This document shows positions 4,513 to 58,624 of a stretch of DNA of 64,000 nucleotides, one piece after another (the stretch's first letter is position 1; every line of letters begins with the position of its first letter). The translations under genes and the position numbers were made by a program. The stretch spans positions 9,955 through 73,954 of the forward strand of contig JAHBMJ010004240.1 in assembly GCA_018398765.1 (NCBI GenBank). The letters run 5' to 3'. Source of the stretch: Chromera velia. Its lineage: Eukaryota > Sar > Chromeraceae. The notes beneath the pieces were generated by a model. The model did no database searches and had not been told where the DNA came from. It saw only the letters and a list, made by a program, of their open reading frames with translations.

Positions 4513-5930
4513 TTGTTGTCGATATATGTTCTTTCTGAGAAGATGGAGAGAAAGCCTTTCCCGGTTCGAGTAGGAGGAGGGACAAGTGGACAAGGGACTA
4601 GACTCCGGGCAAGGAGACCCAGGTATGTGCAGTTGGTTGATGTCTTACCGACTGCTCCTGGGGCTCTCCTTGTTTTAAATCCAAACCAAGTCCCTGAGTC
4701 AACTGGTATTATTCTGCCTGTCCACTTCTCTAATACGCAGGCTGAGCAACTCAAGCAGATGGATGCACAAGGAGAGGAAGGAGGGCGGATGGTTGTGTCG
4801 GTCTAGCCCGTCAACGTCTATAAGAACCACACTCGGACGATGTTCCCGTTTGACCTTCAGGATCAGCCCAACCTGTACTACGAGCCCGAGTATACGAAGG
4901 CCTACGCAAGCAATGAGGCTGTGTCCAACGCTATGGCTGATTTCGCGCGGATGACCTTCAGCAAAGTGGGAGGCCTTGGTTCAGTGTTCGTGCTCGAGAA
5001 CGCTGCCAGTCGAGCGAAGCACCAGCAGATCGTGTTATACAACTGGGATCAGTTTCGGAAGCTCCTGGCTCTCGGACTTCAGTGTTTGTACATACTGATG
5101 GCAGAGTGTAGGTATGATCCAGACCGTTTGAAGAAGGCCTTTTGCAAGATCCTCTCCCAATTGCCCCCGGACCCTTTCCTTCCCCAGTATGGAGTGGCAG
5201 GATACTCCAATGTGCACGTTAGACCTGATCCTCAGGTCTTGATGTATTCAAACCCACTGGAGGCTGCCTTGGCGGCCTTGCAGACAGGTGAAGGTTGTCT
5301 GGGTGGGTAAGATGGCATCCCAGGTATGGCCAGTCAGCCCGTCGAGATCGAGGGATCGGACGTTAAGATATCGGCTGTACAGCCGTCTGGCAAGAGGCGA
5401 TGTCCATGTGAAGGAGCGAAGTCAGTGCTTGGCCCAGGTACTCTGGCTCAGCTCCAATAACAACCACAGCAACAGAAGCAGCAGCAGCAAACAAAGGATC
5501 AGCAGAAGACCATGAGCAGGAGAGAGGGACGGTCAGTCGCAGATCCCCTTGTCACCCCAGTGAGAGAGCAGCCTTCGCGGCTGTATGGTCGGGTCTGCGC
5601 TGAGCTCCCCATCCTGCAAGAAGTCGAGTATCTAATATTGGTGCAGAAAGCCAACGATCTGTACACCAACGTGGTTGGTTTCCTCTAAGCCCACGGTTAA
5701 CCAGTGGAGAAAGACTATGTGAAGACCCTTGTGATCAGGAATCTCCGTTAGTGGGAGGTTAGGAAGGATACCATCCCCCATGATACAGAACTGCAGGAGC
5801 TGCTCTTCTGTGCTATCCATCTCCACAAAGATGACAGCGGTGTTGACAAGCAGGCCACCTGAATATTGGGAGTCGTCCCGGCGAAGCAAGTGACTCCCCT
5901 GGTCAGTCTCGTTGTTCAAAAAAGCTAAAT
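4513..5930 (+). pseudogene. Decayed unidentified ORF
   Basis: One frame keeps protein-like composition for about 470 codons but contains about eight in-frame stops and no obvious frameshift. Visible pieces include a Y-E-P-E-Y and W-D-Q-F-containing segment (about 4840-5310), a Gln-rich run (about 5460-5510) and a charged C-terminal part. No domain is recognised. It sits between the left direct repeat and the GIY-YIG ORF, so it could be a first ORF of the Penelope-like element. Its higher GC content compared with the downstream ORFs would also fit an unrelated older insertion. Confidence 0.4.
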
Positions 5931-5945
5931 CGCTACATCATCAAT

Positions 5946-6946
5946 TTGATAAGAATGGATTCCTGGCAATTTTCTGTGTGTGCTGCAGGTGGGAGAGGGA
6001 ACAGAAGTAGCGAGGGGGAAGGGTATGAATTAGATCCATGGGCGCTTAGGGTGGAAGCGTTAAGCTCTGCAATGTGGAGAAGAATTGAACAGCTGCATGA
6101 TCTGGCAGATGCTTTGTTTACTCATGCTCCAAGGATCTGGAGAGAGAGGGATCCGTTGTCGCTAATATTTTTACATCTGGGTGCAATTCGTTCTTTGCTG
6201 TTGCAGTTATTACATAGACGCGTGCGTTTGGCTTGTCCTGTATGCCGTGACAATGTGCGTAAGTGTAGTTGTAAGCTAAATGTCGAATTGTCTCTGTCTC
6301 GATTTGTAGGTGGAGGGGGTATTAAGATTGTACTGCAACGCCGTGGGTGTGACGGGAGCCAGAGTGGTGCTTCAGGTGCGTCTCTCTGGCGGTCTTGTCA
6401 TGTTCAACGGCTGTTGCTTGATGCTGCTGATTCATTGTTTGTTGAGTGGTGTGAGCGGTGGTTAGAATTCGCTCCTACAAGATTTGTATTTTACCTCAAA
6501 TCTGTTCGTGATCGATTGCAAGCGTATGGAGTGCCCATCTGTGCATATTCGAATAGTAGAAATGTATTGTATATGATGTTTTCTCCTTTCTTTCATCATG
6601 GTCCTTATATTGGGTGTACTTCTCAATTTGTATCTCAAAGGTTGAGAGGGCATGTGAATGCAGCATTTTCTTTGACTCGTCGGGGTGGGCAACAAGCAAT
6701 GCATGCTTCTCGTCTGTACATCGCTTTTTCATTTGACTCTTTGCATTTATAGACGTTGATGCCAGTATGCCATGTAGCTGATACAAATGGATGGACTTCC
6801 AAAAAGCTCTTGCTGGTAACAGAAGCCTTGGCAATCTTGTAGCTGCAGCCCTCTCTGAATATGAAAGGAAATCCTTATTATTCCATTGGTGACAAATCAA
6901 TGATTCGTGTACCTGTGCAGGGTGAACACTTGCCGTCGCAGCACTC
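5946..6946 (+). CDS. GIY-YIG endonuclease part of Penelope-like element (decayed)
   Basis: The first 268 codons (5946-6752) start at an ATG. They contain a Cys cluster (CPVC...CSC, about 6235-6275) that may bind zinc, then the GIY-YIG core. An LY pair (about 6565) stands for GIY, and GPYIGCTS (about 6605) stands for YIG. The conserved Arg and His follow in QRLRGH (about 6640). After an in-frame stop the same frame continues with TEALAIL and LQPSLN, which supply the catalytic Glu and the conserved Asn of the family. The domain would nick target DNA to prime reverse transcription. The frame ends where the LINE begins. All signature residues are visible, but two in-frame stops make the copy inactive. 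Confidence 0.7.
6554..6946 (+). repeat. Left copy of ~390-bp target-site duplication of LINE-1
   Basis: It matches 11140-11532 at a constant offset of 4586 bp. By eye there are 12 differences, all transitions (about 3%). The match ends where the LINE 5' end starts. The second copy begins directly after the LINE's TAAG-repeat tail, so the pair is best read as the target duplication made by the LINE insertion. Confidence 0.8.
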
Positions 6947-9900
6947 ATTGCCACGCTGAATGTCGGGGGTCTTGATTCTTGTCTCAGGAATGAATCGCTT
7001 GACCGGTGGTTAGAAGGGATCGATGTCACAATCCTGACTGAAACGAAGTACACAACCACTTCAATCAACATACCTACCCACACAGGAAAAAACTTTAATC
7101 ATCGAGAATGGTACAGAAGAAAGCTAGGGGTACATAAAAGAGCAAAGGACAGGGAAGTAAAAACAGGGGGGGTGTGTATCCTTGTCCGATCATGCTTGGT
7201 CGCTAGTTTGAAGCCTTTTTGGGAGTTGGTGGGGCCCAGTATAGTCAAACTGACACTCAAGAGCTGCTTGCCGGCCGAGGAAGGGGGGGGGGCGAATGCA
7301 TTTCTGCACATTTTCGGTATCTATCTCCTCCAATCGGGGGCAGAGAAGAGACTAAGAAACAATAAACCGAAAGAGGTAGAGAGAGAGACGCTTCTCAACG
7401 CAGTCTGTGATGTTTCGCTATGTGACCTTCGCATTATGGCAGGAGACTTCAATTGCCACATAGGAAAGGAGGTCCCTAAAGGAATTTCATGGGAAAGGGA
7501 ACAGATCGGGGAGGTGGGTGACTTACAAGAGATCTTGGGGGGCAAGGGGGAAGAAGCAATCGAGGGACTGTCTCGCCGCTCTGACTGTTGTTCAATCGTA
7601 AACGAACCAGGAAGAGCTGCCATTTACTTTTGTGAGAAAGCAAACCTTCTTCCCTTGAATGGCCTGTCTTGGAAAGATGAAAAGAAAGGGATTGAAGTCG
7701 ACTTCACAGAGGCTTGCACTTATTATGAAGGGGGTGCCCCAGCTACGGTCATTGATTTGTTTTTGGTTGATCCTCCTCTTCTTGGTTTATGGAATTCTTT
7801 TGGGGTTGAGCTACAGCCTGACGCAGCCCCCGAACATGCGGCCGTTTCTCTATCTCTCAACCTCTCATCTCCGCCAAAACCGAATGACAACTCGCCGCCT
7901 CACCCTTCCCTTGTCCTATCCCCTTCTTTCACGAAGCCAGGAAGGCAAACGCCGGTCACCAATGATGAGATGATGCCTCTGGCAACTTCGGTAAAAGATT
8001 TAGCGGGGAAGCTTTGGCCTGGGTTGTGGGACGCCGGGATTCAGGAATCGAAAAAAGAAGGCAAGCCTATTCCATGCATACCTTCGCCTCCTCCTCCTCC
8101 CCTCTTCCTCCCTCCCCTTGTGTCTGTCCCTTCTTTTTACCCCGCTACTCAGATACCACTTTCTGCCTTTCCGTCTTCCACTTGTTCTATCTCTGTACCA
8201 CCGAAAAGCCAAATAGCCAGACTCACCCAACAGTGGGAGCATGTACTCGCACAACCCAGGGAGAGAAAACGAAAGCCAACTCATCTGAGGAAAAGTGAAA
8301 AGAAGGAAAAGGCTGTCGCACCTTGGAGAGATCAAGAATGCAGGGAGATTCAGAAGAGAGTTAAATCCGCAGAAAGGGAATGGAAGGAAGAAAGAGAACT
8401 CTGGGGGGACGAAGACGAGCGGTGCATCACAGCAAAGAGAAAGATGAACAGGTTAAATAGAGAGAGAGGGAAGTTGATAGCAAGAAAAAAGAGAAAGTAT
8501 GCCATTTTTCAGGCAGAGAGACTCGCAAAAGAAGCTGTTAAGGACCCAGCAGCCCTATGGAAATGGAAGAGGCAGAGAAAAAAGGCAGAGAGTAGGAGTG
8601 AGGGAGAAAAGCCGTCCGCCTTTTTGTTTTCAAATTTTTGGGCCGATGTGTTCAGTGGGGATGGACTGGAGCCTCAAAAAAAGGATAAAACACCAGCTCC
8701 CCCCCCGGCACCTTTCTTTTCTTTCGATAAATGTGAGAAGATACTGAAGGCAATCGACCCAAAGAAGGCAGCCAGCCTCGAAGGAATCTCCCCTGCGCAG
8801 GTACATTTATGTTTTTCCTCTTCTCGTCTGTCTCGTTTTCTTCTTTTCATTTTCTTCAATCTTTTTTTCCTTTTTTCTTTCTGGCCAGAAAAGTGGAACT
8901 TCATTCGAATCGCTCCTGTTCCAAAAGGTCACGTCTCTCCCTTTTGTGACGAATGGAGGCCTATACATATCGTCTGCCTTCTGGTAAAGTTATTCACGTT
9001 GTTGATGGATGGCCCGTTAAGGGAGACAACGAATATAGATGAACGACAGGTGGGTTTCAGGAAGGAGGTCGGTATAAGGGAAGCGATAGCTGCTCTTCAT
9101 GCTCTCACGGCTTCAGCAAAGAAGAGACACAGACCCCTCCTTACAGCGTTTGTTGACTTCAGCAAGGCATTTGACCGAGTACCCAGAAAGAAAATGATTG
9201 ACAGACTTAGAGAGGAAGGAGTCAGCGAGAAGGACGTATGCATGATTCATTCCATGTATATGAATGTGTGGGGAAGGGTAGATGGGTCAGATTGGGTCTT
9301 TCCCGAAAGTGCAGGGGTAAAACAGGGAGATCCACTTTCTCCTCTTCTTTTTCTTTTATTTATTAATAATATTCATTCTGCTCTGAGTGTTGAAGGGAGG
9401 GAAGCTGTTAATGGCTTGGATGGGGAATCAGATACGGATAAAAGACAGAGGGGGGGAGAATGCGGAGAGAGGAGGGAGGAGAGTGAAACAATGGAGCAGT
9501 GACCCCGTATTCCTGAGGAGGTAAGATTGGTGGACTTACTGCTTGAGAACATAGGTTACGCAGACGATCTTATTATTTTTGCTTACTCTTCTTCTGACCT
9601 GCAGTGGCGTTTGGACCGTTTGGCCTCTTATTGTCAGGAACATGGGTTGAAAATGAATTTAAAGAAAACAAAAGTTCTTGCACTCTCAGGCTCAAGAAGG
9701 GAAATAGAAGGGGAAGTGACTTTTAAAGAGAAGACAGTTGAACGTGTAAAGAGCTATAAGTACCTTGGGTGTCGTGTGTTTGAAGGAGGGGACCCATGAA
9801 AGTCAGTCAGGGACCGATTTGAAAGTGCTGAACGCTGTTTGGGGGCAGTGATGGGCACTTGTTCATCCTTAGGTCCTTTGCTCCCCCTGATGCAAAGTTC

Positions 9901-20741: not shown

Positions 20742-23015
20742 ATAGGGGTGTATCCTCCTATTAGGACACCGGGGGGGGGGGNCGGGGGGGGGGGGGCATC
20801 CAAGCTTGCTCCATTATGCCCGTGGATGGCGGGACGGGCATCGGGCGCTTCGCGCCCGATGCGCCGGACACCGCTCCCCCCGGCGTCCGCTGCTACCGGC
20901 CCGTGCGAGAAGGGATACCCCCCCCCGGTGTCCATATAGAGTTGCCCACCGAGGCTGACGTTCAGCTTTTTAATGCATGCATACATGCATGCATGCATGC
21001 ATTTTTTTTCTTATAGAGGCCCATGCATGCAACGATGCTCCATAATAATACAATAACATGTTTTGTGTATGCAAACCGGGGAAAGTCTCTCAAAAGAATG
21101 CGGACCATCTTTGGAACTCAAACCGCACAACCTACCCCCAATGTTCAAAATTAATTTCACCTCCCGTGCACCTGAACGTGCTTGAACGGCAACACCCACC
21201 CAACCTTCCTCACTGAGTCCTCTGCCAATGAGCACCGGCCACTCAACCCAAAAAGTTCGGCAAACACGCTCTGCTCTGCTGAATCGGATGTCAGCTGATC
21301 TGAGGTAAACAGAGTGATTTTTTCTCAACGTGTCGATCAAGAAGGAAGTCAGTTTGTAAGTGTAGATCGGAACAGAGACGGGAGTGAGGCCGGAAAGATG
21401 ACGGCCCTTCCGTCGGTGTATTTTGGAGTGAATGTAAAGAGAAGGAAGCTTCACGAAAAAAGAGAACAATGTGAAGAGATCGTGTCGTTGAATCCTCGTC
21501 TGCTGGACTTTGTCCGCGTTGATCCCAATGACCCTTCTTCTGTATCAACCCATCTTTTTTGCGGTGTATCCCCTGCAAGATTGACATTCCTTTGAAGAGT
21601 GAGTGGGACTTTTCTCGTCCTCGAACTCACTGCCTTTCAGGTGTGCACCAGGCGATGGATCCGAAGCCCCCCGCTTGGAAAAACAAAGTGGGTGCTCTGG
21701 AGAAAATGAATTTCTTTACAGTTTGTGCTTGCAAACCCAAAGCTCAGCCTCCCATTCAACCACCACCAGCAGTAGCCCTGGCAGCAGCCGCTGCAACAGC
21801 CGTTGATGACGATGTGGTGATGGTTGATCCTCAACCTGATCCCGCCTCCCAGTCTCCTCAGCATGTTCAAGAGGTTGTGCACCCTTGTCCGGGTGTGATC
21901 AGCAAGAAATACTTTGTGCTGGCAGATTTCGTCTTGCCTTTGTACGGAGATGGAGGGGGAGATAAAGATGTGGAGGTAAAGGTGAAACCTGCAGAGATGT
22001 ACGAGGTGAAGGCAATCAAAAACTCTGAGGACGGAGAGAACCTTGGAGCAGTGTTTTCGAAAGTGTGTGGAGGGACAACGCGACTAACCAACAACCCCTG
22101 CAAGGATTGCAAGTCAGTCAGACTCGGCTCATCTCCCTACCATGTCCAGTACCACTCAGTCTGGTTCATCCCTTCTCTTTCTTTTCCTTCTTTCCCTTTC
22201 CGTCTGTTCTTGTCTGCAGGAACATTGTGAAGCTTCGGAAGTTCACGGCGCGGCTTGACCGGGTTCGGGAAACCTGGGCGGCCTTCCAGGCATTCATTTA
22301 CGAGTGTCATGGGGAGGAGGTTCCTGAATCTCTCTTCGCCTTGGCCATCCCTTCCAATCGGGAAAAGGCTGCAGCAAAGACAGAAGGAAGAGTCCTTAAA
22401 CATTCCCCCTGGGTGGATATGCAGGGTGAGGAGAGGATCCTTGCCCTCCGACAGAAGACGTTTGCCGCCCTTCAGATGAAAGTCATCAGACCCGAGTGGG
22501 AGAAGGAGTGGATGAGGGCAGAGCGAGTGTTCCAGACTGCTCAGAATGCGTCTCGTACTATGCATATCCCTGTTATGAACAAGGCCTTTTGGCAAGCGTT
22601 CCGAAAGAAACTGGAAGATGAGGGGAGGGGGGATTCAAAACAGATCGCTCTGGCTGTTCAACAGATCACAGACGGAGAAATGGAGAAAAAACAGGGTGTG
22701 CTGTATGGGTTCCTCATGATGGGGGCACAGGTGATTGACAAAAAAACACGGGGGGTAGGAATATAGGGAATCAAGTCGTACCCCCAGGTCTATGATTTCC
22801 TTCTGGCGATGCTGAAGTGGGGCAGCAAAGCCTCCGAGACCATGTCAAAGACGATGCTTGACTACACCATCACGTCTTTGAGGGCATGGCGCCAAAAGCG
22901 GCTGGACACTGATGAGTTTGAACTTCTTCAACCAGGTCAGCAGCTTCCAAGCAGTCTTTTTCTCTCTCCTTATCTCTTTTTCATTCATTTTTCTTTTTCT
23001 GCTTTCTCTCTTTCT

Positions 23016-23051
<36 letters not shown>

Positions 23052-25120
23052 GTGTGTGTATCTGTATCTGTGTGTGTCTACTTGTATCTGTGTGTGTGTG
23101 TGTGTGTGTGCGTGTAATTGTATTTGTTTTCACTCTTCACATCTTTCCCTTTTGGATGCAGATTTCTCTGCCCTTTGTGCAAACGTCGCCCTGAGCACCA
23201 AGTACGAGAAGACACCGGACCAGCAGCGCCAAGGAAGAAGAGCCCCGAAAGCCGTCGCCCATGACAGTACCTCTGTACTCAGACGGAGCGAGAAATACAA
23301 GGGAAAAATTACGGGTGGCAACAAAAACAAGAACCAGGCTCTTATTGAGGTGAGCAGCTCGGAGCAGCTTTTCTCATTTTTTCTTTCATTGAATCATGCG
23401 CCCTCTCTCTTACCTTTCTCTCAATTCTTCTTTTCTTTTTTCTGCGCATTCTTACTCTTTTCTTTCTTGTGTATCTCATCTCGATCACTCCACCGTCTCC
23501 CCTCTTTTATTTTTGCCTGCAGCTCCCTGAAAACACCACCGTCAAATCTTTGCACGAGTTGCTGAAGGACGTTCAGCTTGCGAACTTCGTTGCCGTCGGG
23601 TTTCTTGCCGGAACGAGTTGTGGTCACATGACCTTCCCCCTCTTTGTCTCCCCACACTGCGACGATAGCACCGTCAAGCAAGAAGTTGAGACCTTTACCA
23701 CCCTGATCAAAGCTGTCGAGACTGAGTACCCCTGTGTCGCTTTCCTTTCTAACACCGGCAAAGACTATACCGAGATTCAAAAGATCTGTCACAGCACCCA
23801 GACGGATCTAGGATGCATGAGTGAGATCATCACATCGCGCGTCCGCTCCTCTCTTCCCACTGCGTTTCCCGTTTTTTCTCCCATTCTTATCCGCATTCAG
23901 GTTGACCCCCACCCCGATCACCCCCTGACTGTGTTTCCCGATGGCCGTCATGGCCGCAAGAGTGGCCGATGGCAGAGTCTTGGTCTGCAAAACATCATCA
24001 AGCTTGGCCGTACATTCGCTGCTCTGCCGCTTTTGGAGAGGGCGGTTGGGGTTGAAGGGTTTTGGATTGGAAGAGAAACCCTGACCCCGTTTGATACCAT
24101 GTCAGACGAGCTTGCCATGCATGCTGCGTCTGCCCATGTGTTGAAAGACCTAGCCAAACTGCACAGCCCTGAGTGGGACTGTGAGGGAACAGCAGCACAC
24201 CTGTTCATATGGGGGGAATTGTGGGATCCTTCAGAAGTCTTTGATTTAGAAATCAGCAAGCGTGTGGCCAGGCTCATTTTCTCTAAGACGTGCTTGATTT
24301 TGGAGATGGAGTGTCGTCTGAAAGTCATCCAAGAGACTGGCATGTCTGCTGACCACATTGGTCCCCACCCCACCCCCTTCCTCACAGCAGTCCATCATAT
24401 CAACGCTGCTCTGGCATTGGTTGACACATGGCTGGATTTCTTCCCCGATGACCCTCTTCACCTCCCCGAATACACAAGCATGAAAGCCGAGCACTGCTTC
24501 GGGGGGGGGAGGACCCGGCATTAGACAGGCACCATGACGGTGCTTGATTGGGTGTACCACTTTGTGCACTGCATTGTTGAGCAGAAGCTTGAGCAGACAG
24601 GGTCGATTCGGTTCCCCAAAACAAAGAAGGGGTACATCAGAAACGACCCAACGTCTCGAACCCCTGCGTTTTCTTATCTCATTCCCTCTCGAGATGAGCT
24701 GAAGGCTATCATCCGCCATGCAGAGCTCACTGCCTACAAGTTCATGGAGGGTGTTACTGGGGAGAAGTTTTCCCCCCTTGGTCAGCTCCGTCCCGATGTG
24801 TTGGGAGGGGATACCACAGAAGGTGTGAGCGACTTTCTGACTCCCGAAACCTCAGAGTCTGACATGTCCATCCGTCTCATCGACTACCACGGTGTTGCCC
24901 TTATTGATAGCGAGGGAATGCTGCTGTCAACATCTCAGCGAGAGATGGAGGCCGTCTTTGACACAGAAGCAGGCACTCTCACCAAAGTGCACATGAACCA
25001 AAAGATCTGCTATGCTCTCCGCTCTTCCTCTCTTGAAGTACAGCGGGGGGCAGACGCGAACGCAGCGACAGAGATCATTGATCTCGAGCTGTTTGAGCCT
25101 CCCCTCGTCGCCGAACCAGC

Positions 25121-25154
<34 letters not shown>

Positions 25155-26182
25155 CCCCCTCCTACGCAACAGCCGTGGAAGAGAGGAGACGGTACGACTA
25201 CCTCCCGTTTTCTCACTTGTATTGAGCGGGTTGTTCAGGATAGGAAGAGAGGGGCAGCTTTCATTAAGGAGCTGGCCGCCATCCGTTGTCATATCGATCT
25301 TTGTGACTCAAATGGAAAGCGCCGCGTTGAAACACGTGGACAACCGTAGAGAGAGAGGGGGTTGGGAAAGGAAGAAAGCATCCTGAAATTTGAGGGAGAG
25401 GAGGCGAAAGAGAATTTGTCAAAGGCCCTTGCTGACTACCGTCGGAGGCAGAAGAAGGGGGATGAGTATACAAAGCAGGAAAGTCAGGTGATGGGTCGGT
25501 TGGTGAGATGGAAGTTGAGAGAGGCAGCAGGCTTTGCTCTGTGAGGGGGGGGCTCTTCCCTCATTGGCCCTGCCCAGCTGTACATGGCACGAATAGATAA
25601 GACAGTTGTGATTTTGTAGATCATTGCTGTGGGAAAGAAAACAGGCAGAGCATACACACACTTCGTTGGGTGTGGTCCCCTTGCAGAGGCAGAGAGGGCG
25701 ATCGTTCGCTCTCTATGCCAGGAAGAGGGGCCTGCAAAGGCTGTTTTTTCTTTTGAGGGGGCCAGCCGGAGTGCCACCCTGATGGTGGGGCTTGAGGGTA
25801 TAGTTTGCCCTCTCGTCCTCGGGGATAATTTCGACTCAAGGGAGGGAGGCATCGAGCTTCGCCCTCTTGCCCTTGCAAAGTTTGAAGAGATGCAGGCAGC
25901 AGAGCAGCAGAGAGCCTCCCGAACAAGACGACAGCGTCTACCGTGTCGAGAAGATTGTTAGTGGGGAGAAGCGGGGGAGGATAAGGTATTTCCTCATCAA
26001 GTGGGAGGGATACCCCGAGGAGGAGAACACCTGGGAGCCAGAGAGAAACCTCCTTGGTGCCTCTGTCAAGAGGATGGTCGCCGCCTACAAGAAGGCTAAC
26101 CGGATGAAGTGAAAGGAAAAATGCAGGAGAAGACGGGTTGGCCAAGCACACACACACATGCATGCAGAAAGAGAAAGAGACA

Positions 26183-26224
<42 letters not shown>

Positions 26225-26911
26225 GTGTGTGAGAGAGAGAGAGAAAGAGAGAGCTCCGAGTTATTTTCATTATGTATCTATAGATAGGTCGGACCTCGTG
26301 CCTGAAGGGGGTCCATAGGCTTGTCAGAACGTATCGGGATGACTTCGCATTGGGGTAGTCAGGTGTTCCAACGTTTTCTTCTCCTTCCTCAGTCCTTCTC
26401 TTTGCACGCAATTAGTGTATCGCATTCATACATGGTGTCTCGATGGACCGAGATCGAGTACATGCATGTATGACTCTATCGCCTTTCCCTCTATCGCCTT
26501 TCTCTCTCCTCTCAGCATCTCTCACTGTTCGGAGATCGAAAAATTACTGATGACTTGCATAGTCATTGACAAGTTGCACATGAATGAGATTGCACACGAT
26601 TGTTAACTAAGCTAGTGACATATTAGTAACATGATTAGTTTGAAGACACTTTTAAATAGCGTCTGATAGTTTAAGATATATTAGTGTTTTTGAGTTTTAA
26701 GATAGTTTTAGATAGTTAAAGAAATTTTAGGATATTGTTTAGCTGAGAAGTTAGGAGTTTTTTTTGTTCACCATTGTGCCTCACACCCCCCCGCCATCCG
26801 TAGTCCGGCGTTTTTAGATGACCTCATTCTGAATCACACCGGGGGGGGGCATCCACCCTCAGCTCTCGTAGCGCTGCACACCACCACCCCTCCGGTGTCA
26901 TACACCCCTAT
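20742..26911 (+). mobile_element. Chromodomain-bearing DNA transposon with 12-bp TIRs and 8-bp TSD
   Basis: The element is 6170 bp. It starts ATAGGGGTGTAT and ends with the exact reverse complement. Both ends have further GACACCGG and G/C-run inverted sequence (20763-20800 and 26838-26905). An 8-bp duplication of copia sequence flanks it. Inside is one intron-containing gene. An 8-bp duplication is known for hAT, P and Zisupton-like elements. I could not place the protein in any of these with confidence. An ambiguous base (N, about 20782) in the left G-run marks a sequencing problem. Confidence 0.85.
21314..26112 (+). CDS. Putative transposase: zinc finger, novel core, C-terminal chromodomain (decayed)
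   Basis: Early sequence carries a C2H2-like finger (CIPC...W...HCLSGVH, about 21560-21650). Acid-, Ala- and Pro-rich sequence and a large novel core follow. The last 60 residues (about 25930-26095) are a chromodomain: VYRVEKIVSGEKRGR, FLIKWEGYPEEENTWEPE, LL...MV. The aromatic cage positions (Y, W and the W of NTWEP) are present. Three GT-AG introns keep the frame: 22113-22219, 22936-23161 (with CT and GT runs) and 23350-23522. The frame then holds four or five in-frame stops, mostly TAG, and shifts at a T-run (about 21555) and just before the chromodomain (about 25920). A poly-C tract (25123-25150) encodes a Pro run. A chromodomain would tether the element to methylated histone. No catalytic triad was identified. 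Confidence 0.65.
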
Positions 26912-26919
26912 CCAGAGAA
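26912..26919. repeat. Target-site duplication, right (CCAGAGAA)
   Basis: This second copy of CCAGAGAA follows the transposon's right end. The copia coding sequence resumes immediately after it. Confidence 0.85.
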
Positions 26920-28220
26920 ACCCCAGAGTCCCCAAAAGAAGAGAGAAAAAGAGAAGAAAGAATAGATTTATATGCATCGGTACCTCTCCACACAACAAGA
27001 GAAACAGAGGATGGAGGAACACGAATAGGCTTCCATCCGTTCTTCTTCTGTACAATCACCACCACCACGTTCGAACTCTCAATGCCCCCAAAGAAGCCCT
27101 CGACCCCATACACATCCTCCTCATCCTTCTGTCTCAGCCGTGCATCATACATATACACTTGATCGCCTACAGTGATCGATGGAATCTCAGAAGCCCTCTC
27201 TTCCCCAAAGTACGCATGCACGGCTGACTGACCTGTTACTCTGGACACGCAGTTATTCAACTCCTGCACAACTCCTTTAAACAGCCACTTGTCTGTGTAT
27301 CTAGGCAGGCCTGTCTGTCTCCTCACTTTCTTGAGAAGCCTCTTGACTGTTCCGTTTGCCCTCTTTGCGTTTTTCTGATGTTGTGGTGTGCAGTCTGCCC
27401 CTCGTCTGTGGTGGATGCGCTCTTTCTAACAGAAGTGATCATACTGACCTGGCTTGTTGCCTTCGAATTTACCTCCGTTATCTGTCTACACCTGTTCTAC
27501 CTTGCTAAAACGGGGCTCATGACTACAGAACAAAGATGCCTGACTGCATGGGCTTTCTTTTTCAAAACTTCTCCATCTATCAGTCTTTTTGACCTCTCTG
27601 TCAGGAGACTTGCAGGCACACCCCCAGAAAGAAAAAGGAGATCCTGCGTCCAGTGCGAGCCTATACGTTCATTTCTCCCCCCACCCCTCTATCTAGCTAG
27701 AATCCGTCGCTGGCCGCGTGACCAAACCTTGCATACCACATGTTCAGTTCATGAGCAGTTATATGTACACCTTCCGTTGCAGAGAGTTTTCCTTTCTCAA
27801 TGGAGACAGATGAATTGTGGGGGGAAAGGGACTCATGTGCGATAGCAATAAACACGCTGTCTGAATTCTCATTCAATTGAGTAGAGGAAGAGAGAGAGAG
27901 AACACACACTATGTGGATACTGCCTCTCTCATATAAACACACGCGTACAGGCACCCCCCCCTGCCCAAGAAATTCAACCCAAAAGGGGGAGACAACTTTC
28001 TGCATCCTACAGCCCCTCACAGAGAGAAGAGAGGTGGGTACTGACGATTTAAAAGCTCCTTTGAAGAGAGAACGAACGGGATCTCCATCCACCCCCTCGA
28101 GAACAAGAACTGCCTCCACCTCTTCAGCACAATCTATCTCCCCCCTAGAGGCTTCCTCATACCGAAACTCACGAGGGCGACGGGAAACAATCGAGTCCTC
28201 CAGATCCCCCCTGATCAAAT
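26920..28220 (-). pseudogene. copia protease, GAG-pre-integrase and integrase (fossil)
   Basis: The minus-strand translation includes MWYARFGHAA (about 27715), the GAG-pre-integrase step. Further on there is an integrase end region with HAYFGE and a KVGF-like GDQVYMYDARLRQK segment (about 26900-27330). The protease-like part lies about 27740-28220. It is broken, with several breaks. It continues the copia polyprotein from the gag block at higher coordinates. Confidence 0.7.
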
Positions 28221-41767: not shown

Positions 41768-44494
41768 TCACGCAGCCGACTCAGGGTCCTCCCGCACAAA
41801 GCGGTCTCTCTCGTGAGACAGCTGCATGGAAAACTCCCGACCAAGAAGAGAGACTGGCTGGAACGGCCCCCTCTGACCCCTGCCGTGGAATGCAGAGGTC
41901 AGAACATTGATCGCCACATATCTCTGAAGCGTGCAACCGAGGATCTTCCAGTAACGATCAGTCAACCGAGCCTGTACAGCCATCAGCTCACCCTCTGTCG
42001 AAAACCCCGCCCTCGAACTAGCCACACTGACCAGCTCTTTGACGAAAGAGACAGTCTCCCTGTCCGGACGTCCAAAGGTCTCGAAGACCAATGGGACAAA
42101 CCGCAATCCCACAGCGCGTGCTGCTACTGCGTACTTCCGCACTTTCTCCTCGCTCTTCGTCTTTGCTGCTGCCCCTGCTGTTTTAGACCTTGTACGCAGG
42201 CGGGAAGCATCGGAAGAAATCGGAAAAGTCACAGAAACGTCCGCAAGGAGGGTGTCTCCATTCGATAGAGAGGCAAAAAGGTCCACTCGCTTGTTGCGCT
42301 CCTCGGTGAGTCTTGAGTCCGTCGCCACCCCCACGTGCCCAAAAGTCGTCTCCTCAAGCACATGAGTATGTCGGAGACCCCCCAGGATCTGGGTAAATGC
42401 ACATTTTACCTGCTCATGCCGCCAGTGCACTCCCCCCCCATTCGGGCATTTCTGTGCATGGTGGCCCCGAGGGTCGAGCGGTGACCCACATACACACACA
42501 CCTGCCCTTCGCATCTCGGGGATTGGGAGGCCCAAACGAATGCGGAGTGCGACTCTGTACACTGCCGGAGGGAAGCGTAACCAACCTGATGACGGGATGG
42601 TGCTGAGCCACGCGGAGGCTCCGTTGCTAGAGCATGAATGGAGATGGACACGCTCAGACAGCCCTACCTTAGAGAAGAGGAAGACCCTGCGGGATCGATG
42701 GAGCGCGTCCGTTATCCTCTGCTGCTCTTGGGTATGAGGGGCTCTCCACCAGCGTCTTGACTGAGCGTCCCATCCTTGGCGCAGAGGATGGTGGGCCTTC
42801 AGCTTCACAGACTCCGTCGCGCTCTCTGCTCTCTCATATTCCCTCTTCGACGCCTGCAGCCAGGGGAGCGCAAAAAAGGCATCTCTGTCTGGGGACTGAC
42901 TGGAGCCCAAGAAAGACTGGTCGGTGAGACGTTCTATCACCGTCGACAGGGTCGCCCCACAGCTGCCTAGCAGACCTGCCGTTGCGGTCGCTCGAAAGCA
43001 GGTAAGACCTAGTCCACCCTGGTACTGCGGTAAGTACGCCTGATTCCGCACCTCCCCGTACGCCCATTCCTGCTCCATTATACCTATGATACGCGCCCAC
43101 GATTCGCCTAGCTCTCTGTCTGCCTGAGACCATTCGTCTAGCGCAATGACGTCACCCATAATCCTTGTCAGATAAATCAGCTTCGGCAGAACACAGAAAC
43201 GGAAAAGGAGGTGGGCTCCTTGGGGGTCACCGTACCCTTCCACTGCCTGGCTCAACTCCCGCGCCTCTTTCAGCTTTTTATCAAAGTGTGCCCTCTGATA
43301 CTCTGTAGTCCCACTGGCCGCCCCACAGAGTCGGAAACCTGCAAGGGATGGGATGATTCCAGGCGGTGATGGGTATGCGCTCGGATATTCCCTGAGCCCT
43401 TGCCACGAAGGTGAGTGGACCGAGCTCTTGTCAGGTCGCAGGGTTAACCCGAAACTCTGCAACCTGGCTACGCTCACTCTCCACGCATGCAAGATGCTGT
43501 CGTCATGTCCGTCTGTAGGGATCTGCTGGAAAGGACAGAGGGGGAAAACCATAGACACGTCGTCCATGAAGGCGCCGACGAAACACCCCCTTCCCCCGTG
43601 CTTTGCCTGCAAATCCCCCAGCAACCCGTCTAAGGAAGGTTTTAGCGGCCCCATGCAGAAGAGAAGGGGACCCGCCACATCCCCCTGTTGCACCCCCTCT
43701 TCGCATGTGATCCTCCGGAGGAGCCCTGACTGGTCTCTGAAGACTAAGTCTGAAGGAGTTTCATACCACAAAGCGAAGAAAGAGTACAACTGGGGGAAAT
43801 AAGCATGAACCTGGTCCATAATCACCTGCCGGTCATATGCATTGAAGGCGTTCGATGCGTCCAAGTTCAGCACAGCTGACGAGGGGGACCGCTGCAAGCA
43901 CGTCTGCACACAACGGAACAATTTCTCTATGCCTGCCCTTGTACGCACTGCAAACTGTAGGGGGCCCAGGTGCCTCTCGAACTGCACGCCAAACTCCAGC
44001 AGGATTGCCCTCGTCACCCACCGACGAAGGACGTCCCCTACCACAATGGGTCTCACCTCTGTCCCTCTGGCATTCTTATTCAAGGCGAAACACCTGCCCC
44101 CCGCGAGCAGTGAGATGAAACCCACTGGGGCGTCTCCTCTTGCAAGACATGTGGCAATACGAAGGATGCGCGCCTGCGCTGAGCCGTCTCTGGGGAGGAA
44201 GTAGCTCAAGTGTTCGTAACGCCATCCCGTGACCCCCTGTGCTGATCCTTTTGGCGCAGACCTAATCGCTTTAAGCAGATTGTCGCGAGACAGTGTGAGC
44301 AGAGGAGATTGAGAGCCTGAGGACTGTGACTGAGAGTCGCTCTGGGGCGGGCCCCGGAGGAGAAGAGGGTGGGCTCTACGCGGAAACATACCTGCTACCT
44401 TCCTGAAGGTAGCTGGTGACGCTGGGGCCACTCCGAAGGATTGGAGACGGGAGGCGGCTTTTGACAACGCCCCCTCCTCTATCAGACCCTGCAC
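41768..44494 (-). CDS. Reverse transcriptase with C-terminal restriction-like endonuclease
   Basis: This is an intact 908-codon frame. RT motif A is LDASNAFNAYDR (about residues 210-222), motif B is GVQQGDVAGPLLF (about 268-280) and motif C is GAFMDDVSMVF (about 308-318). A Cys/His cluster CVCGSP...GHHAQKCP...RH (about residues 655-690) precedes the endonuclease. The nuclease has NKRVDLFASL, LLADVSVTFP, a Lys-containing EEKVRKY and FVPLVFETFGR (about 735-830), a PD-(D/E)XK-type layout. It would cut a specific target and prime cDNA synthesis there. Its first Met lies inside the upstream ORF, one nucleotide (+1) off that frame, so translation may need a +1 shift or re-initiation. Confidence 0.88.
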   Translation of the reverse strand: MQGLIEEGALSKAASRLQSFGVAPASPATFRKVAGMFPRRAHPLLLRGPPQSDSQSQSSGSQSPLLTLSRDNLLKAIRSAPKGSAQGVTGWRYEHLSYFLPRDGSAQARILRIATCLARGDAPVGFISLLAGGRCFALNKNARGTEVRPIVVGDVLRRWVTRAILLEFGVQFERHLGPLQFAVRTRAGIEKLFRCVQTCLQRSPSSAVLNLDASNAFNAYDRQVIMDQVHAYFPQLYSFFALWYETPSDLVFRDQSGLLRRITCEEGVQQGDVAGPLLFCMGPLKPSLDGLLGDLQAKHGGRGCFVGAFMDDVSMVFPLCPFQQIPTDGHDDSILHAWRVSVARLQSFGLTLRPDKSSVHSPSWQGLREYPSAYPSPPGIIPSLAGFRLCGAASGTTEYQRAHFDKKLKEARELSQAVEGYGDPQGAHLLFRFCVLPKLIYLTRIMGDVIALDEWSQADRELGESWARIIGIMEQEWAYGEVRNQAYLPQYQGGLGLTCFRATATAGLLGSCGATLSTVIERLTDQSFLGSSQSPDRDAFFALPWLQASKREYERAESATESVKLKAHHPLRQGWDAQSRRWWRAPHTQEQQRITDALHRSRRVFLFSKVGLSERVHLHSCSSNGASAWLSTIPSSGWLRFPPAVYRVALRIRLGLPIPEMRRAGVCVCGSPLDPRGHHAQKCPNGGGVHWRHEQVKCAFTQILGGLRHTHVLEETTFGHVGVATDSRLTEERNKRVDLFASLSNGDTLLADVSVTFPISSDASRLRTRSKTAGAAAKTKSEEKVRKYAVAARAVGLRFVPLVFETFGRPDRETVSFVKELVSVASSRAGFSTEGELMAVQARLTDRYWKILGCTLQRYVAINVLTSAFHGRGQRGPFQPVSLLGREFSMQLSHERDRFVREDPESAA

Positions 44495-46247
44495 TTGTTT
44501 CCGTCCGTTTGGAAACCAGGTCGTCTTCTGTACGTTGCTGGGTGGAACGACGCCCCCTCCTCTCCTGGCCCTTTCGTTGGCTCTCCCTCATGCGCACCAC
44601 GTCCTCCCGCAGAACTTGCACTAGCGACTCAAAGTCTCCCTCCCAAAAGGCTTTGATCCGCCGCCTGCGCGCTGACAAGGAAGCAGGTCCCCCTCGTCTG
44701 TCCTTACGGAAAAAAATCGAAGGAAAATAGGCCAGAGCTTTCCACGCACGTTCTGCTTTGATGGCGTCCTCGTCTCCTATCCGGTCCACAATCTCTTCAA
44801 TGACAGCTGCCAAGGCGGGGCGCAGTCTCGGGTCGATGTGCCTGTCTGTAGGAATATCCAAGTCATCCCACACTTCTACTGTCCAATCGACAGAATCCCA
44901 GAAGGCCCATTTACTTTCCCACCCCGCCGCCCGCTCTGAAGCATCCCCTCCGTCGTCTGGGTCTCCGTCACTACCTGCCTCGCTTCGCTGGTCTTGCTCG
45001 TCCTGCGCTGGGGCCTGTCCGTTTGCTGCCGTCGCCGTCTCTGCTTGTCCGTCCATCGGGTCATCCCCTTCTCCTGTGGGGGGATCCGAAGAAAGAGGAA
45101 TCTGGACCCCCGTGTCATCGCCTTCCGCGCCCCCCGTGCCTTCGTCTTGAGGAGATGGAACCCCCACGCTTCGTGTTTCCTCTGGATCGGAATCTGTGTC
45201 TGTGGGTGCTCGAGATGCCACAGCGTCTTGCAAATCCCCCGGGCGGTGTCGGCCCCCTGAGGAGAAGTCCCCCCCCGGTGCCCAACCCGCTGCCGCCCGC
45301 TGCTCTGCGCCCTCTCCTGCTTGTTGCCTTGCCCGGAGGGATGTCTCTACGATGGACTGTCTCAAGGGGGTGGGCAGGAAACGAGACACTACTGATACCG
45401 TCGGTGACCTCCTGGGGGCTGCCGCCGCCGCGGCCGCTGCTGCTGGTGGTGGAAACAACGCCGCGGGCATTGGCGATGCTAACGTGGCAGCCGATGCATT
45501 CTGTCTGGGGGAGGGGGCAGGCATTGAAGACGAAGAGGAAGAAGCGGAGGCGGAGGCCGAGGCCGAGGCTGAGGCTGAATTTGCTATTTGGAGCGGGCCT
45601 GGCCCTTTCAGTGAGGAGGCGGGAGCGGGAGCAGAACTGCTGGCTGAGGCGGAGGCTAAACTTGCGTCAGCTACATCCTGCCTCCGCTGTGGTCCGTGGT
45701 TTGAAGGAAGCGGCGCATTCTGTATCCGTCTTTTCTCTCTCCCCATCTGTCTCGTCACCCCTGCGGCCTGGCGTGGTGCTCGTTGGGCCCCGGGTGTCAC
45801 AAGTTGGGGTGCTGTAACCGCTAGGATGGGATTTGACCAACGCTGTGTCGGATGGGGGTGCCGTGCAAAGCGGGTCTCCGGGTCAATTCTGGAAGGGGCA
45901 ATGGGAGGCCTGGTGCGTGGGGAAAGCTCGTCTGGTTCGATCGGTTCTCCCTGGGTCCACGGCTCCTCGTCTTCTCTGTCCGATTCCCCCCCGTGACGGT
46001 CCCTCCGGTTGTTGTCTCCTTCCCGTGATGGTATGTTGCCCTCGGTGGAGTGCACAGCCCTGTTGACGTCCCCCCCGAATCCCCCCATGCGGGCTAGCAA
46101 GTGCCGTGCCTCGAGGTCGGGAGGGGGAGGCCGACGGCCCTGGAGTCCTGCCTGCTGCACCTGCGAGAGAAAGAGGGAAAAGAATATGAACGCCGTGAAA
46201 AGACGCCCAGGCCCCCCCTGACGTCTGTGGACAACCCTCTCTGCCAC
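44376..46247 (-). CDS. RLE retrotransposon ORF1 (low-complexity plus pre-RT region)
   Basis: This 623-codon frame is intact. The first ~400 residues are Pro/Ser/Ala/Gln-rich with acidic patches, and include SASASASASS and poly-Ala runs. The last ~180 residues hold a conserved-looking block: WDSVDWTVEVWDDLDIP, ERAWKALAYFPSIFFRKD and RRGGPASLSARRRRIKAFWEGD. In related non-LTR elements this stands just before the RT. A pyrimidine tract ending TTTCTCTCGCAG (minus strand, about 46165-46190) lies inside the N-terminal codons, so the true protein may start in an upstream exon. Confidence 0.7.
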   Translation of the reverse strand: MAERVVHRRQGGPGRLFTAFIFFSLFLSQVQQAGLQGRRPPPPDLEARHLLARMGGFGGDVNRAVHSTEGNIPSREGDNNRRDRHGGESDREDEEPWTQGEPIEPDELSPRTRPPIAPSRIDPETRFARHPHPTQRWSNPILAVTAPQLVTPGAQRAPRQAAGVTRQMGREKRRIQNAPLPSNHGPQRRQDVADASLASASASSSAPAPASSLKGPGPLQIANSASASASASASASSSSSSMPAPSPRQNASAATLASPMPAALFPPPAAAAAAAAAPRRSPTVSVVSRFLPTPLRQSIVETSLRARQQAGEGAEQRAAAGWAPGGDFSSGGRHRPGDLQDAVASRAPTDTDSDPEETRSVGVPSPQDEGTGGAEGDDTGVQIPLSSDPPTGEGDDPMDGQAETATAANGQAPAQDEQDQRSEAGSDGDPDDGGDASERAAGWESKWAFWDSVDWTVEVWDDLDIPTDRHIDPRLRPALAAVIEEIVDRIGDEDAIKAERAWKALAYFPSIFFRKDRRGGPASLSARRRRIKAFWEGDFESLVQVLREDVVRMRESQRKGQERRGRRSTQQRTEDDLVSKRTETSAGSDRGGGVVKSRLPSPILRSGPSVTSYLQEGSRYVSA

Positions 46248-55400: not shown

Positions 55401-58400
55401 CTAAGGGGGAGGTGGTTGTGGGGGAAGGGGTAGTGGGTCAGGGGGAGGTGGGACAAGGGGAACAACTTGACCTCCTTCACGCAGTTCGTTTACCCCTCTG
55501 TCGAACAGGCCGGGAAAAACCGTCTCAGAAAACGGTAGGACCGCTCTGGCGAGAGGAATCATTTCATCATCAGTCACCGGGGAAGTTCTATTAACAGTGA
55601 GGAGAGGGGGGAGAAAAGAGAAATTTTTTTCGCCCGTGGGGGCATGCGGAGGATCAGAAGACATAGAAGGAGGAGATGAATCAAGAAAAAAAGAAAGAGA
55701 AAGAACAACATGTTGAGGGGCAAAGTCAGCTTCCAGGTTTGAAGTGGCAGAGGACCAGGCTGTCAAAAGAAAAGGATCTATAAAAAAGTGATCAATCGCT
55801 GTTATTTCTTCTCCTGCTTTAAAAAAGGTGCACGGGCCCGGAAAGGAGACATCAACACCCAGTCTCTCGCATTTCAAGGACAGGCTGTGAAGAGGAATTA
55901 AGTCAGAGCGTTCACAAAGACGGATCAGCCAATTCCCTTGCTCGTCAGGTTGACTGCCATGGCTGCAGGCTGACAATCGAGAGGGCTTGCAAGCATCAAC
56001 TTCGTTCTCTTCTCTGCTTTCATCAGTGGGACATAGCATTCTTTCCCAAGTCAGCCCTTCCAGCACCCGAGTCCCCAGCTTGCCGTTCATGTCCCCAACC
56101 AGGATACGCAAATCCTCGAGAGGTACCTGACACAGTGCATCGATCACACCCTCTCTCTCTCTGTCTCTTTGCTCCCTGTCTCTCTGTCTCAGGTCAGACC
56201 CTCTAGGTAGAAAGTACACACCGAAGACATGGAAGACTCTTGTGGCTGACTCCCCCCCTTCTGAGGGAGAAGGCACATTCACTGACAGACGGACCAGATT
56301 TTGACCCACCAGCTCCCACCTTGGCTGCAGTTCATGAACTAAAGAATTCCTGACTAGGATGCATACACCCCCTGTCCTTGCTTCCCCGATGGTTACGGCT
56401 TTCCTTCTCGACCCTTCTGCTTTGATTTTCCTTCTCACCCACTCAAAGTGATCGAAATTATGCCCTGTATGAGTGGATGTTCTTACGGGCATGGAAGGGC
56501 ACTTCGTTTCTGTTAACACCACAATGTCTGCCTGGCAAGCGGCCAGCCACCGCTCGAGAGCCTTGCTTCGTATGCGTGACCCCAGCTCCCCCACATTTAC
56601 CGTTTTTATTGTGAGTTTCCTTCTTCCTGAAGCCATGAGACCAGACCTCACATCGTAAGAAGGAGAGAAAACATTGTGGGAGGATGAGGATGCAGAAGAA
56701 AAGAGAAGGGAGGAGGGGGACGGCTGAAAGACCCATTGAGGGATTGAAGAGGTTGCGGAGGGGCACACCAGTGGGGCAGAAGCAGAAGCATATATAGAAG
56801 CCGAAGCAGAAGAGGAAGAAGAAAAAGAAACAGAAGCAGAAGAAGAAGAAGAAAAAGAAGAAGAAGAAGAAGAAGAAGAACAAGAAGAAAAAGAACAAGA
56901 AGAAAAAGAAGAAAAAGAAGAAGAAGAAGAGGGGGATGAGGAAGAAGGAGAAGAGGAGGAGGAGGAGGAGGAGGAGGAGGACGACGACGACGACACTGCA
57001 ACCGGAGGGGGGGGAAGGTTGGAAGGAGAACCTGCATGACGCTTTTGTCGGTCTGAAACTTCACATTTTCTAAGTCTGCATGCTTCCCTGCGACCGGCCC
57101 AGAAGGCACACACCAGACGCTTCTCGTCTTTCTTTAGTTGATCTGCGCTTATCCATGTGAAGTCAGAAGCGCCCCTCCTCCAAAAATTATATTCTCTTCT
57201 CTTTCTCTTTCCGCCCCTCACTGCACGAATTCTTGCAGAAGAGCGTGAGCCTCCATGTATGAGGGCTCGGTCCTCCTCGTCCCTGTCATCAAAAGATCTA
57301 AAAGAAGAGAAAGAAGAATCAGAGACAGAAGAAGAGGAAGAGGGGGAAGGCGAGGACAGAAAATCATGCTCAATGACATGTCTCCTCCTACGGCATTCTC
57401 TTTCTTGTTGTCTGTCCTCATGCAGCTCTCGTTGAGGGGCGGATATGAGATTCTTTCCATTTAGGAGGTTATTGCAGCACCCTTTTTCGAGATAGTCGCA
57501 ATCGACGCAGGGTCTTGCTGGGAGAGATTCCGACCTTCTAACGTATGAGCATCTGGATGACAGACGACATCCGCCTGCTGAAGCCTTACAGTTACAACAT
57601 TTCCCTTTATGGTTCCCCCCCCGTCTGTTACGGCCCTGCTTGTCGGGCTTTTCCCTGCCATTCTCTTTCTTTTCATTTCTCTCCTTTGCATCATATCTCT
57701 CCCTCTCTTTACTTTTCTCTCCGTCCCCCAATTTGCTACCTGAGGCCTGTCTGTATGACTGCTGCTCCCCCTGTCCATATTCTCTCTGCGGGGGGGGTAG
57801 GAAGGAAAAAGCAGAACGAGAACGGATGGGCGGAACAAGAGGGAGAGAGGAAGCTGAGAAAAAGAAAGAAGCACCATGAAGAACACCGTAACTTGGTCCG
57901 CAGGCCGCTTGAACAACAGGCAGAGAGGACAGAGAGGAGCAAAAAGGAGGGGGTGCCACTGGAGGTAGAGTGAGGGGAAATGGAAGTGAGACAGGTGGGG
58001 AAGGAGCAGCAACAGCAAAGTGAGAAGGAGGAGGAGGAGGTTCAGGAGGGGGACGAGGAGCCTCCGGGGAAGGAGGCAGAGGGGGAGGTGGCGGGGGGGG
58101 AAGAAAATGAGATGGGGAAGGGGAAAGCAATGGAGGCGAGCAGAGGGTTGGGGCGGAGGGTTGAACAGAACCATGACAAGAATTTATGGATACAAAAGAA
58201 GGGGGGAGGATAACAGATGAGGACCGACCAAAAGCAAACTGAGAGGCAACAGGGAGAGAGAAGCATGGAGGAAGACATGTACATGGAAAGGATGCATCAT
58301 ACAGTAAACACGTACAGTTAATTCGTTGCTGCCTATCTAGATTTTTCCTTGTCCGTGCCCTCCCTCTGCTCTTATTAGACTTTCTTCTCATCTCTTTCCT

Positions 58401-58553
58401 CTGTGTCTGCCTCTTCTTCTGTGAAGTTTCCCCTCGAGAGTGAGGGAAGAAGGAAAGACACTGAGAAGCCCGTCTGCCTAATGTATCTGTACAAAGCTTT
58501 TCTGCGAACTCATCTGTTTCTGCCTGAAGTATGCTCCATCTGTTGGTGCTCAT
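55401..58553 (-). CDS. LINE-2 N-terminal region and APE endonuclease
   Basis: An unbroken frame of 1050 codons. The N-terminal ~640 residues are Pro- and Ser-rich with a basic start. They hold a Cys cluster (CCNCKASAGGCRLSSRC, PCVDCDYLEKGCC), a CCCH-like finger (CAFWAGRREACRLRKCEVSD...H) and a Ser run from GAA/GGA repeats (56800-57000); these would bind RNA. The endonuclease (about residues 640-960) has TVNVGELGSR, LTETKCPS, GGVCILVRNSL, VGDMNGKLG, TAIDHFFID and PQHVVLSLSF. The frame stops at 55401, and the same frame then continues in sister-like linker sequence to about 55098 with further in-frame stops. Confidence 0.85.
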   Translation of the reverse strand: MSTNRWSILQAETDEFAEKLCTDTLGRRASQCLSFFPHSRGETSQKKRQTQRKEMRRKSNKSRGRARTRKNLDRQQRINCTCLLYDASFPCTCLPPCFSLPVASQFAFGRSSSVILPPSFVSINSCHGSVQPSAPTLCSPPLLSPSPSHFLPPPPPPPLPPSPEAPRPPPEPPPPPSHFAVAAPSPPVSLPFPLTLPPVAPPPFCSSLSSLPVVQAACGPSYGVLHGASFFFSASSLPLVPPIRSRSAFSFLPPPQREYGQGEQQSYRQASGSKLGDGEKSKERERYDAKERNEKKENGREKPDKQGRNRRGGNHKGKCCNCKASAGGCRLSSRCSYVRRSESLPARPCVDCDYLEKGCCNNLLNGKNLISAPQRELHEDRQQERECRRRRHVIEHDFLSSPSPSSSSSVSDSSFSSFRSFDDRDEEDRALIHGGSRSSARIRAVRGGKRKRREYNFWRRGASDFTWISADQLKKDEKRLVCAFWAGRREACRLRKCEVSDRQKRHAGSPSNLPPPPVAVSSSSSSSSSSSSSSSPSSSSPSSSSSFSSFSSCSFSSCSSSSSSSSFSSSSSASVSFSSSSSASASIYASASAPLVCPSATSSIPQWVFQPSPSSLLFSSASSSSHNVFSPSYDVRSGLMASGRRKLTIKTVNVGELGSRIRSKALERWLAACQADIVVLTETKCPSMPVRTSTHTGHNFDHFEWVRRKIKAEGSRRKAVTIGEARTGGVCILVRNSLVHELQPRWELVGQNLVRLSVNVPSPSEGGESATRVFHVFGVYFLPRGSDLRQRDREQRDREREGVIDALCQVPLEDLRILVGDMNGKLGTRVLEGLTWERMLCPTDESREENEVDACKPSRLSACSHGSQPDEQGNWLIRLCERSDLIPLHSLSLKCERLGVDVSFPGPCTFFKAGEEITAIDHFFIDPFLLTAWSSATSNLEADFAPQHVVLSLSFFLDSSPPSMSSDPPHAPTGEKNFSFLPPLLTVNRTSPVTDDEMIPLARAVLPFSETVFPGLFDRGVNELREGGQVVPLVPPPPDPLPLPPQPPPP

Positions 58554-58624
58554 CGTCTGTCTAACTGCATGCCTTTCTGCTTTCCAAGAAAAAATTAAAA
58601 TCGGTTACATGCATGCATACAGAG

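Follow-up and report, generated by a model that had tools for sequence, protein, structure and literature searches.

A decayed DNA transposon of Chromera velia with a chromodomain at the end of its putatively P-like transposase

Chromodomains are established on the integrases of Ty3/gypsy retrotransposons. A locus of Chromera velia raises the question of whether a cut-and-paste transposase can carry one as well and, if so, to which superfamily such a transposase belongs. The locus lies in a 64,000-nucleotide stretch of contig JAHBMJ010004240.1, the whole of which is referred to here as the window, and consists of a DNA transposon of 6,170 bp (window positions 20742-26911) with perfect 12-bp terminal inverted repeats (TIRs). 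The initial annotation of this DNA described a cut-and-paste transposon with a chromodomain at the C terminus of the encoded protein, and this description is upheld by the reading frame of a sister copy, L033, and by a second family of elements. On the reading that is considered moderately probable, the element is a decayed, formerly autonomous cut-and-paste transposon whose spliced gene encoded a very distant P-like DDE transposase, with a captured chromodomain that probably tethers integration to methylated-histone chromatin.

Ends, copies and a second family

The 12-bp TIRs and the 8-bp target-site duplication (TSD) noticed at the outset are both confirmed, in the window and in further copies. 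Within the window, the only 12-mers with at most one mismatch from ATAGGGGTGTAT are the two TIRs themselves. A search of the assembly (177.8 Mb in 4040 contigs) with the window element yields at least 115 matching pieces, on at least 39 other contigs, with 40 of 407 candidates scored; the 115 take in the window copy as well as some matches to simple repeats. Among the matches listed, many copies retain the ends only and, judged from the matched ranges, no other copy spans the full interior. The family comprises many mobilised deletion derivatives.

The copy survey covers 36 of the 39 other contigs, three partial ones being omitted. Both TIRs, with up to three mismatches, are present in 29 of the 36 surveyed copies, and the seven copies without both were excluded before duplications were counted. 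An 8-bp TSD with at most one mismatch is found in 23 of the 29 two-ended copies and is perfect in 14. As a control, left and right flanks from different copies were cross-paired; a TSD-like match at the same threshold occurs in 0 of 812 pairs, all of which have at least two mismatches. The six exceptions comprise three copies with common flanking sequence, one that runs into N, and two with two and three mismatches, respectively. Since the flanking sequence is identical among the first three, they probably all derive from one insertion. No target consensus stands out clearly across the surveyed insertions of this family.

Two smaller observations concern the ends. The copies L052, L053 and L057 have the same left flank, and in each the left duplication is apparently separated from the left TIR by four additional bases (ATAT); because of these common features, this is probably one insertion that was duplicated inside a larger repeat. 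In addition, an 8-bp motif, GACACCGG, follows each TIR in inverted orientation (20765-20772 and 26892-26899), at unequal gaps of 11 bp and 0 bp, and is possibly a subterminal transposase-binding site.

A search of the genome with the core protein finds one other site only, on contig C3873. This second element, referred to as L013, measures 6,514 bp (C3873:20387-26900, corresponding to L013:2888-9401, minus strand), has the ends ATAGGGGTGTAA and the TSD GTCTCATT, and its TIR has 11 of 12 bases in common with that of the window element. A TSD is present in two of the three second-family elements checked: a deleted derivative on C3313 has the TSD GCTATATG, and a derivative on C224 has none. The second family numbers at least 108 matching pieces, itself included and many of them deleted (40 of 495 candidates scored). 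The joined proteins of the window element and L013 are 35% identical across the core region. At least three introns had been noticed in the window gene at the outset, and three GT..AG introns can indeed be modelled, which restore the reading frame; splicing of the transposase gene is predicted from these junctions. The L013 gene has about eight introns, of which one is at a common position by eye.

Identity of the catalytic core

The signature of the P superfamily consists of D, D, [C/D](2)H and E in an RNase H-like fold (PMC8230255). Anchors, namely short segments of the P transposase around D230, D303, D339 (of D(2)H) and E531 (residues from PMC8230255, letters from 6p5a), were set in order on the aligned pair of window and L013 proteins and scored against shuffles. 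The letters of P (6p5a) and of the hAT transposase Hermes were retrieved from the PDB with consensus baits. With the first segment shortened to match the Hermes letters, the four anchors score 50 against 20.1±6.0, which is reached by 0 of 600 shuffles; because the resemblance to P was spotted before the test, neither this figure nor those that follow come from a blind search. In the shortened run all four anchors fall on conserved blocks, and looser spacing likewise gives 0 of 600. Full segments score 42 against 17.1±6.6 (6 of 3000 shuffles), and five anchors, with D444 added, score 52 against 19.0±7.0, a value reached by 1 of 3000 shuffles and by 2 of 3000 sets of other acidic segments.

The best placement (window/L013) consists of HDSTS/EDSAS, SNTGKDY/TDCGKDY, DGRHGRKSGR/GGKHGVKASR and EHCFGGGRTR/EHFFGNGRTR. 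The window protein contains the motif VFxDxxHxxKxxR; EHxFGxxRxR occurs in the window and L013 proteins alike. The distance from D(2)H to E is 183 in the window protein and 192 in P. A stretch resembling the D444 region of P can be seen by eye, and the length of the insertion is compatible with the guanosine triphosphate (GTP)-binding insertion domain of P. The likeness to the P element and THAP9 (Drosophila P, zebrafish Pdre2) extends to the 8-bp TSD, the TIRs (13 bp in zebrafish) and the many internally deleted copies (PMC8230255, PMC7776569), as well as to the D-D-D(2)H-E order with an insertion of about 180-200 residues between D(2)H and E. In contrast to these systems, the window family has no detectable THAP domain, a longer spacing between the first two acidic positions and a C-terminal chromodomain, and there is no significant sequence similarity outside the signature blocks.

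A number of results weigh against a P relationship. Pfam scans with the whole protein and with pieces match no transposase family for the core at E<=10, and phmmer and profile searches of the PDB with the core miss 6p5a and return no transposase relative at E<=10. Smith-Waterman scores against P are at chance, both for the window protein (36 vs 36.4; 151 of 300) and for L013 (32 vs 36.8; 269 of 300). A comparison of hidden Markov models, which the initial annotation had proposed as a check, gives a weak result: hhalign against P reaches a probability of 1.5% (P=0.034), with the alignment falling on the E531 block. With two placeholder columns still included, the five anchors scored 37 (20 of 1000 shuffles, 23 of 1000 sets of other segments), and in the five-anchor run D444 is placed elsewhere than the by-eye choice. 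Single-sequence P tests with segments of ±7, 10 and 13 are not significant for the window protein (221, 138 and 359 of 500) and uneven for L013 (153, 23 and 12 of 500), while the reversed window sequence gives 30 of 500. The Asp of D(2)H is Gly in L013, and the second Asp is Asn in the window copy, where it would fit the decay of that copy. No THAP domain is matched in the L013 N-terminal piece or in the whole L013 protein; the N-terminal motif found by eye instead is C-x2-C..H-x5-H. The TIRs, finally, are similar to hAT ends. Because neither a THAP domain nor a recognisable profile match was found, the core is described as P-like and not as a member of the P superfamily; the relationship itself is suggested by the conserved sites.

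The best surviving alternative is that the core belongs to a new superfamily, namely to RNase H-like DDE transposases without a specific relationship to P, which make 8-bp TSDs and have a chromodomain of their own. This is rather unlikely. It would agree with the absence of Pfam and PDB transposase matches for the core or its pieces, with the weak single-sequence tests, with the missing THAP domain and with the first two acidic positions, which are 105 residues apart vs 73 in P. It does not account for the recurrence of the four P sites, in order, on the conserved pair at the shuffle frequencies given above, the VFxDxxHxxKxxR and EHxFGxxRxR blocks among them. The initial annotation had offered a choice between a new superfamily and a strongly diverged branch. 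With conserved sites that agree with the P signature better than chance, there is no need to postulate a new superfamily; the second option survives as a distant P-like core, with the qualification that P turns up in no blind search and that single sequences test weakly.

A strongly diverged hAT element is quite improbable. The 8-bp TSD is also that of hAT elements (Hermes, Ac, Tol2), the TIR TAGGGGTGTA is similar to the ends of Ac and Tol2, the N-terminal finger is BED-like by eye, and hAT genes exist in the same genome. However, the Hermes anchors score at chance on the conserved pair (19.5 vs 20.4±6.1, 327 of 600; with looser spacing 28.0 vs 26.1±6.2, 215 of 600), and no hAT dimerisation domain is found in a scan in which a hAT fragment of the same genome, L027, scores E=5.6e-9. 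Since that fragment is so easily found, a conventional hAT would probably have been detected. The 23 TSDs also show no preference for the hAT target consensus nTnnnnAn. The candidate was rejected on the Hermes sites (D180, D248, C(2)H, E572) and the missing dimerisation domain, and the core is not detectably hAT.

KDZ was rejected as well, as there is no match to Pfam PF18758 at E<=10. The 8-bp TSD is common to Zisupton (PMC12730594), and KDZ elements are known from algae (PMC12477816). A genome search for KDZ gave no match, control genomes being likewise silent. A search of IMG/VR for relatives returned 41 stretches that matched a pattern, none of which was confirmed.

The chromodomain and its proposed role

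The C-terminal chromodomain seen in the initial annotation is recovered by Pfam (E=1.6e-13), and its Y, W and Y align with the residues of HP1 1kna at the positions of the aromatic cage. In the window, the frame of the core continues into the linker and is broken by stops only, while the chromodomain lies in a different frame from the upstream open reading frame (ORF). In the sister copy L033, which has no core, a single frame, interrupted by three stops peculiar to this copy, leads from the linker across the chromodomain. The second element also ends in a chromodomain (Pfam E=2.3e-8), and one open exon of L013, as of L022, holds both the last part of the linker and the chromodomain. The same architecture is present in two diverged families. 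Because core and linker are in frame in the window, linker and chromodomain are in frame in L033, and the second family has the same ending, the chromodomain is part of the transposase gene. That it could be a separate neighbouring gene, of the host or of a retrotransposon, adjoining an unrelated transposon, was considered in the initial annotation and is very unlikely: it is out of frame with the upstream ORF in the window and chromodomain-like matches are frequent in the genome (at least 146, the element's own copies included, with 150 of 387 candidates scored), but the TIRs enclose it, the linker of L033 reads into it without a change of frame, and it also terminates the second-family gene, whose core is about 35% identical.

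On the reading of the element as a P-like transposon with a captured chromodomain, the product of a single spliced gene would be a DDE-type transposase and a distant relative of the P-element superfamily. Its N-terminal zinc finger, C2H2-like and not of THAP type, may bind DNA or the element ends. It would be followed by an RNase H-like core with the D, D, D(2)H, E signature, whose residues are the candidate catalytic ones, and with an insertion of about 180 residues, and then by a C-terminal linker, with the HP1-like chromodomain last. In transposition, the 12-bp ends would be recognised by this protein, which would cut the element out and insert it into target DNA cut with a stagger of 8 bp. 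Recognition of a methylated lysine, probably of the H3K9me type, by the chromodomain would keep the integration complex at silent chromatin, the role that chromodomains play in Ty3/gypsy integrases. Integration is probably tethered to methylated-histone chromatin in this way.

Chromoviruses and other chromodomain-bearing Ty3/gypsy elements likewise have a C-terminal chromodomain on a DNA-inserting enzyme. They differ in being retrotransposons with an integrase, whereas TIRs, an 8-bp TSD and a gene of cut-and-paste type characterise the window element. Chromodomains are also found on Gypsy elements of brown algae that do not belong to the chromovirus lineage (PMC12477816). Among the titles and abstract openings listed in a literature survey, with most subscription papers and Repbase outside its scope, there is no precedent for a chromodomain on a cut-and-paste transposase, and a word search of the Ginger paper (PMC2836005) for "chromo" gave no match. 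It is tentatively proposed, at somewhat less than even likelihood, that the two families are the first known of a cut-and-paste lineage, either a new superfamily or a deep branch of P, which acquired an HP1-like chromodomain and aims its integration with it at methylated-histone chromatin, a strategy that would have arisen independently of Ty3/gypsy integrases. Tethering of the transposase to silent chromatin by the chromodomain, if real, would mean that the same way of targeting arose convergently in retrotransposons and DNA transposons; a P relationship, if true, would mean that P-like transposases, best known from animals, also occur in a distant eukaryote, combined there with another kind of DNA-binding domain.

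Gene model, decay and surroundings

The features of the window copy are collected in Table 1. The protein order is zinc-finger-like motif, N-terminal region, core, linker and chromodomain.

Table 1. Positions of the transposon features in the window
Feature	Position	Strand	Basis
TSD left, 8 bp, CCAGAGAA	20734..20741	.	sequence and copy survey
TIR left, 12 bp, ATAGGGGTGTAT	20742..20753	+	sequence and copy survey
Exon 1: ATG and N-terminal region with C-x2-C...H..H zinc-finger-like motif	21398..22112	+	ORF list; L013 exon 1 compared by eye
Intron 1 (GT..AG), modelled	22113..22219	+	
Exon 2: precedes the catalytic core; stop 22764-22766, sense codon in sister copies	22220..22935	+	
Intron 2 (GT..AG), modelled; sole position common with L013 by eye	22936..23161	+	
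Exon 3: holds the proposed first catalytic Asp, 23263-23265	23162..23349	+	
Intron 3 (GT..AG), modelled	23350..23522	+	
Exon 4: remaining proposed RNase H-like core, linker and chromodomain; four stops, one frame change	23523..26112	+	
Proposed second catalytic position: Asn in window, Asp in L013	23751..23753	+	
D(2)H motif of P-type signature (DGRH)	23940..23951	+	signature per PMC8230255
Proposed catalytic Glu in EHxFGxxRxR	24489..24491	+	
HP1-like chromodomain	25939..26094	+	Pfam PF00385 E=1.6e-13; PDB best match HP1 1kna E=5.1e-11
TIR right, 12 bp, inverse of ATAGGGGTGTAT	26900..26911	-	sequence and copy survey
TSD right, 8 bp, CCAGAGAA	26912..26919	.	sequence and copy survey

An intact protein, as first supposed, is not encoded by the window copy, which is dead: it has five in-frame stops (22764, 24522, 25347, 25542 and 25617) and two frame changes. 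The first frame change lies in exon 1, between about 21532 and 21592, and is possibly a frameshift or an unrecognised intron; the second is directly upstream of the chromodomain. Sister copies have sense codons at four of the five stops, position 24522 being covered by no copy among the matches listed, and because of these sense codons the stops represent decay and not a special genetic code. A code in which TAG is read as Gln, suggested by several stops at Gln positions of L013, was rejected on account of the same codons.

The window copy differs from L032 and L033 by 308 transitions and 43 transversions, and the per-site change rate among the three is highest at CpG (0.142, vs 0.087 at CHH and 0.048 at CHG). 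Since transitions dominate and the CpG rate is the highest, this pattern suggests that silenced copies lost methylated cytosines by deamination. In the L013 gene model, one exon junction contains a stop and one lacks an in-phase GT donor. The intron that splits its EHFF-G motif (L013 about 5098-5190, minus strand) has no GT donor in the right phase, which may be due either to non-canonical splicing or to an indel at this place.

Directly at the right end of the transposon, an ORF at 26898-27425 (minus strand) resembles a retroelement integrase by eye and has no Pfam match at E<=0.01. The transposon appears to be located in or beside an old retroelement, which as regards targeting is an anecdote only. 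Further large ORFs carry domains as found in non-long-terminal-repeat retrotransposons, namely reverse transcriptase domains at 6926-9499 (plus strand) and 41771-44587 (minus strand) and an endonuclease domain at 55404-58604 (minus strand), and the 64-kb window as a whole is rich in transposable elements.

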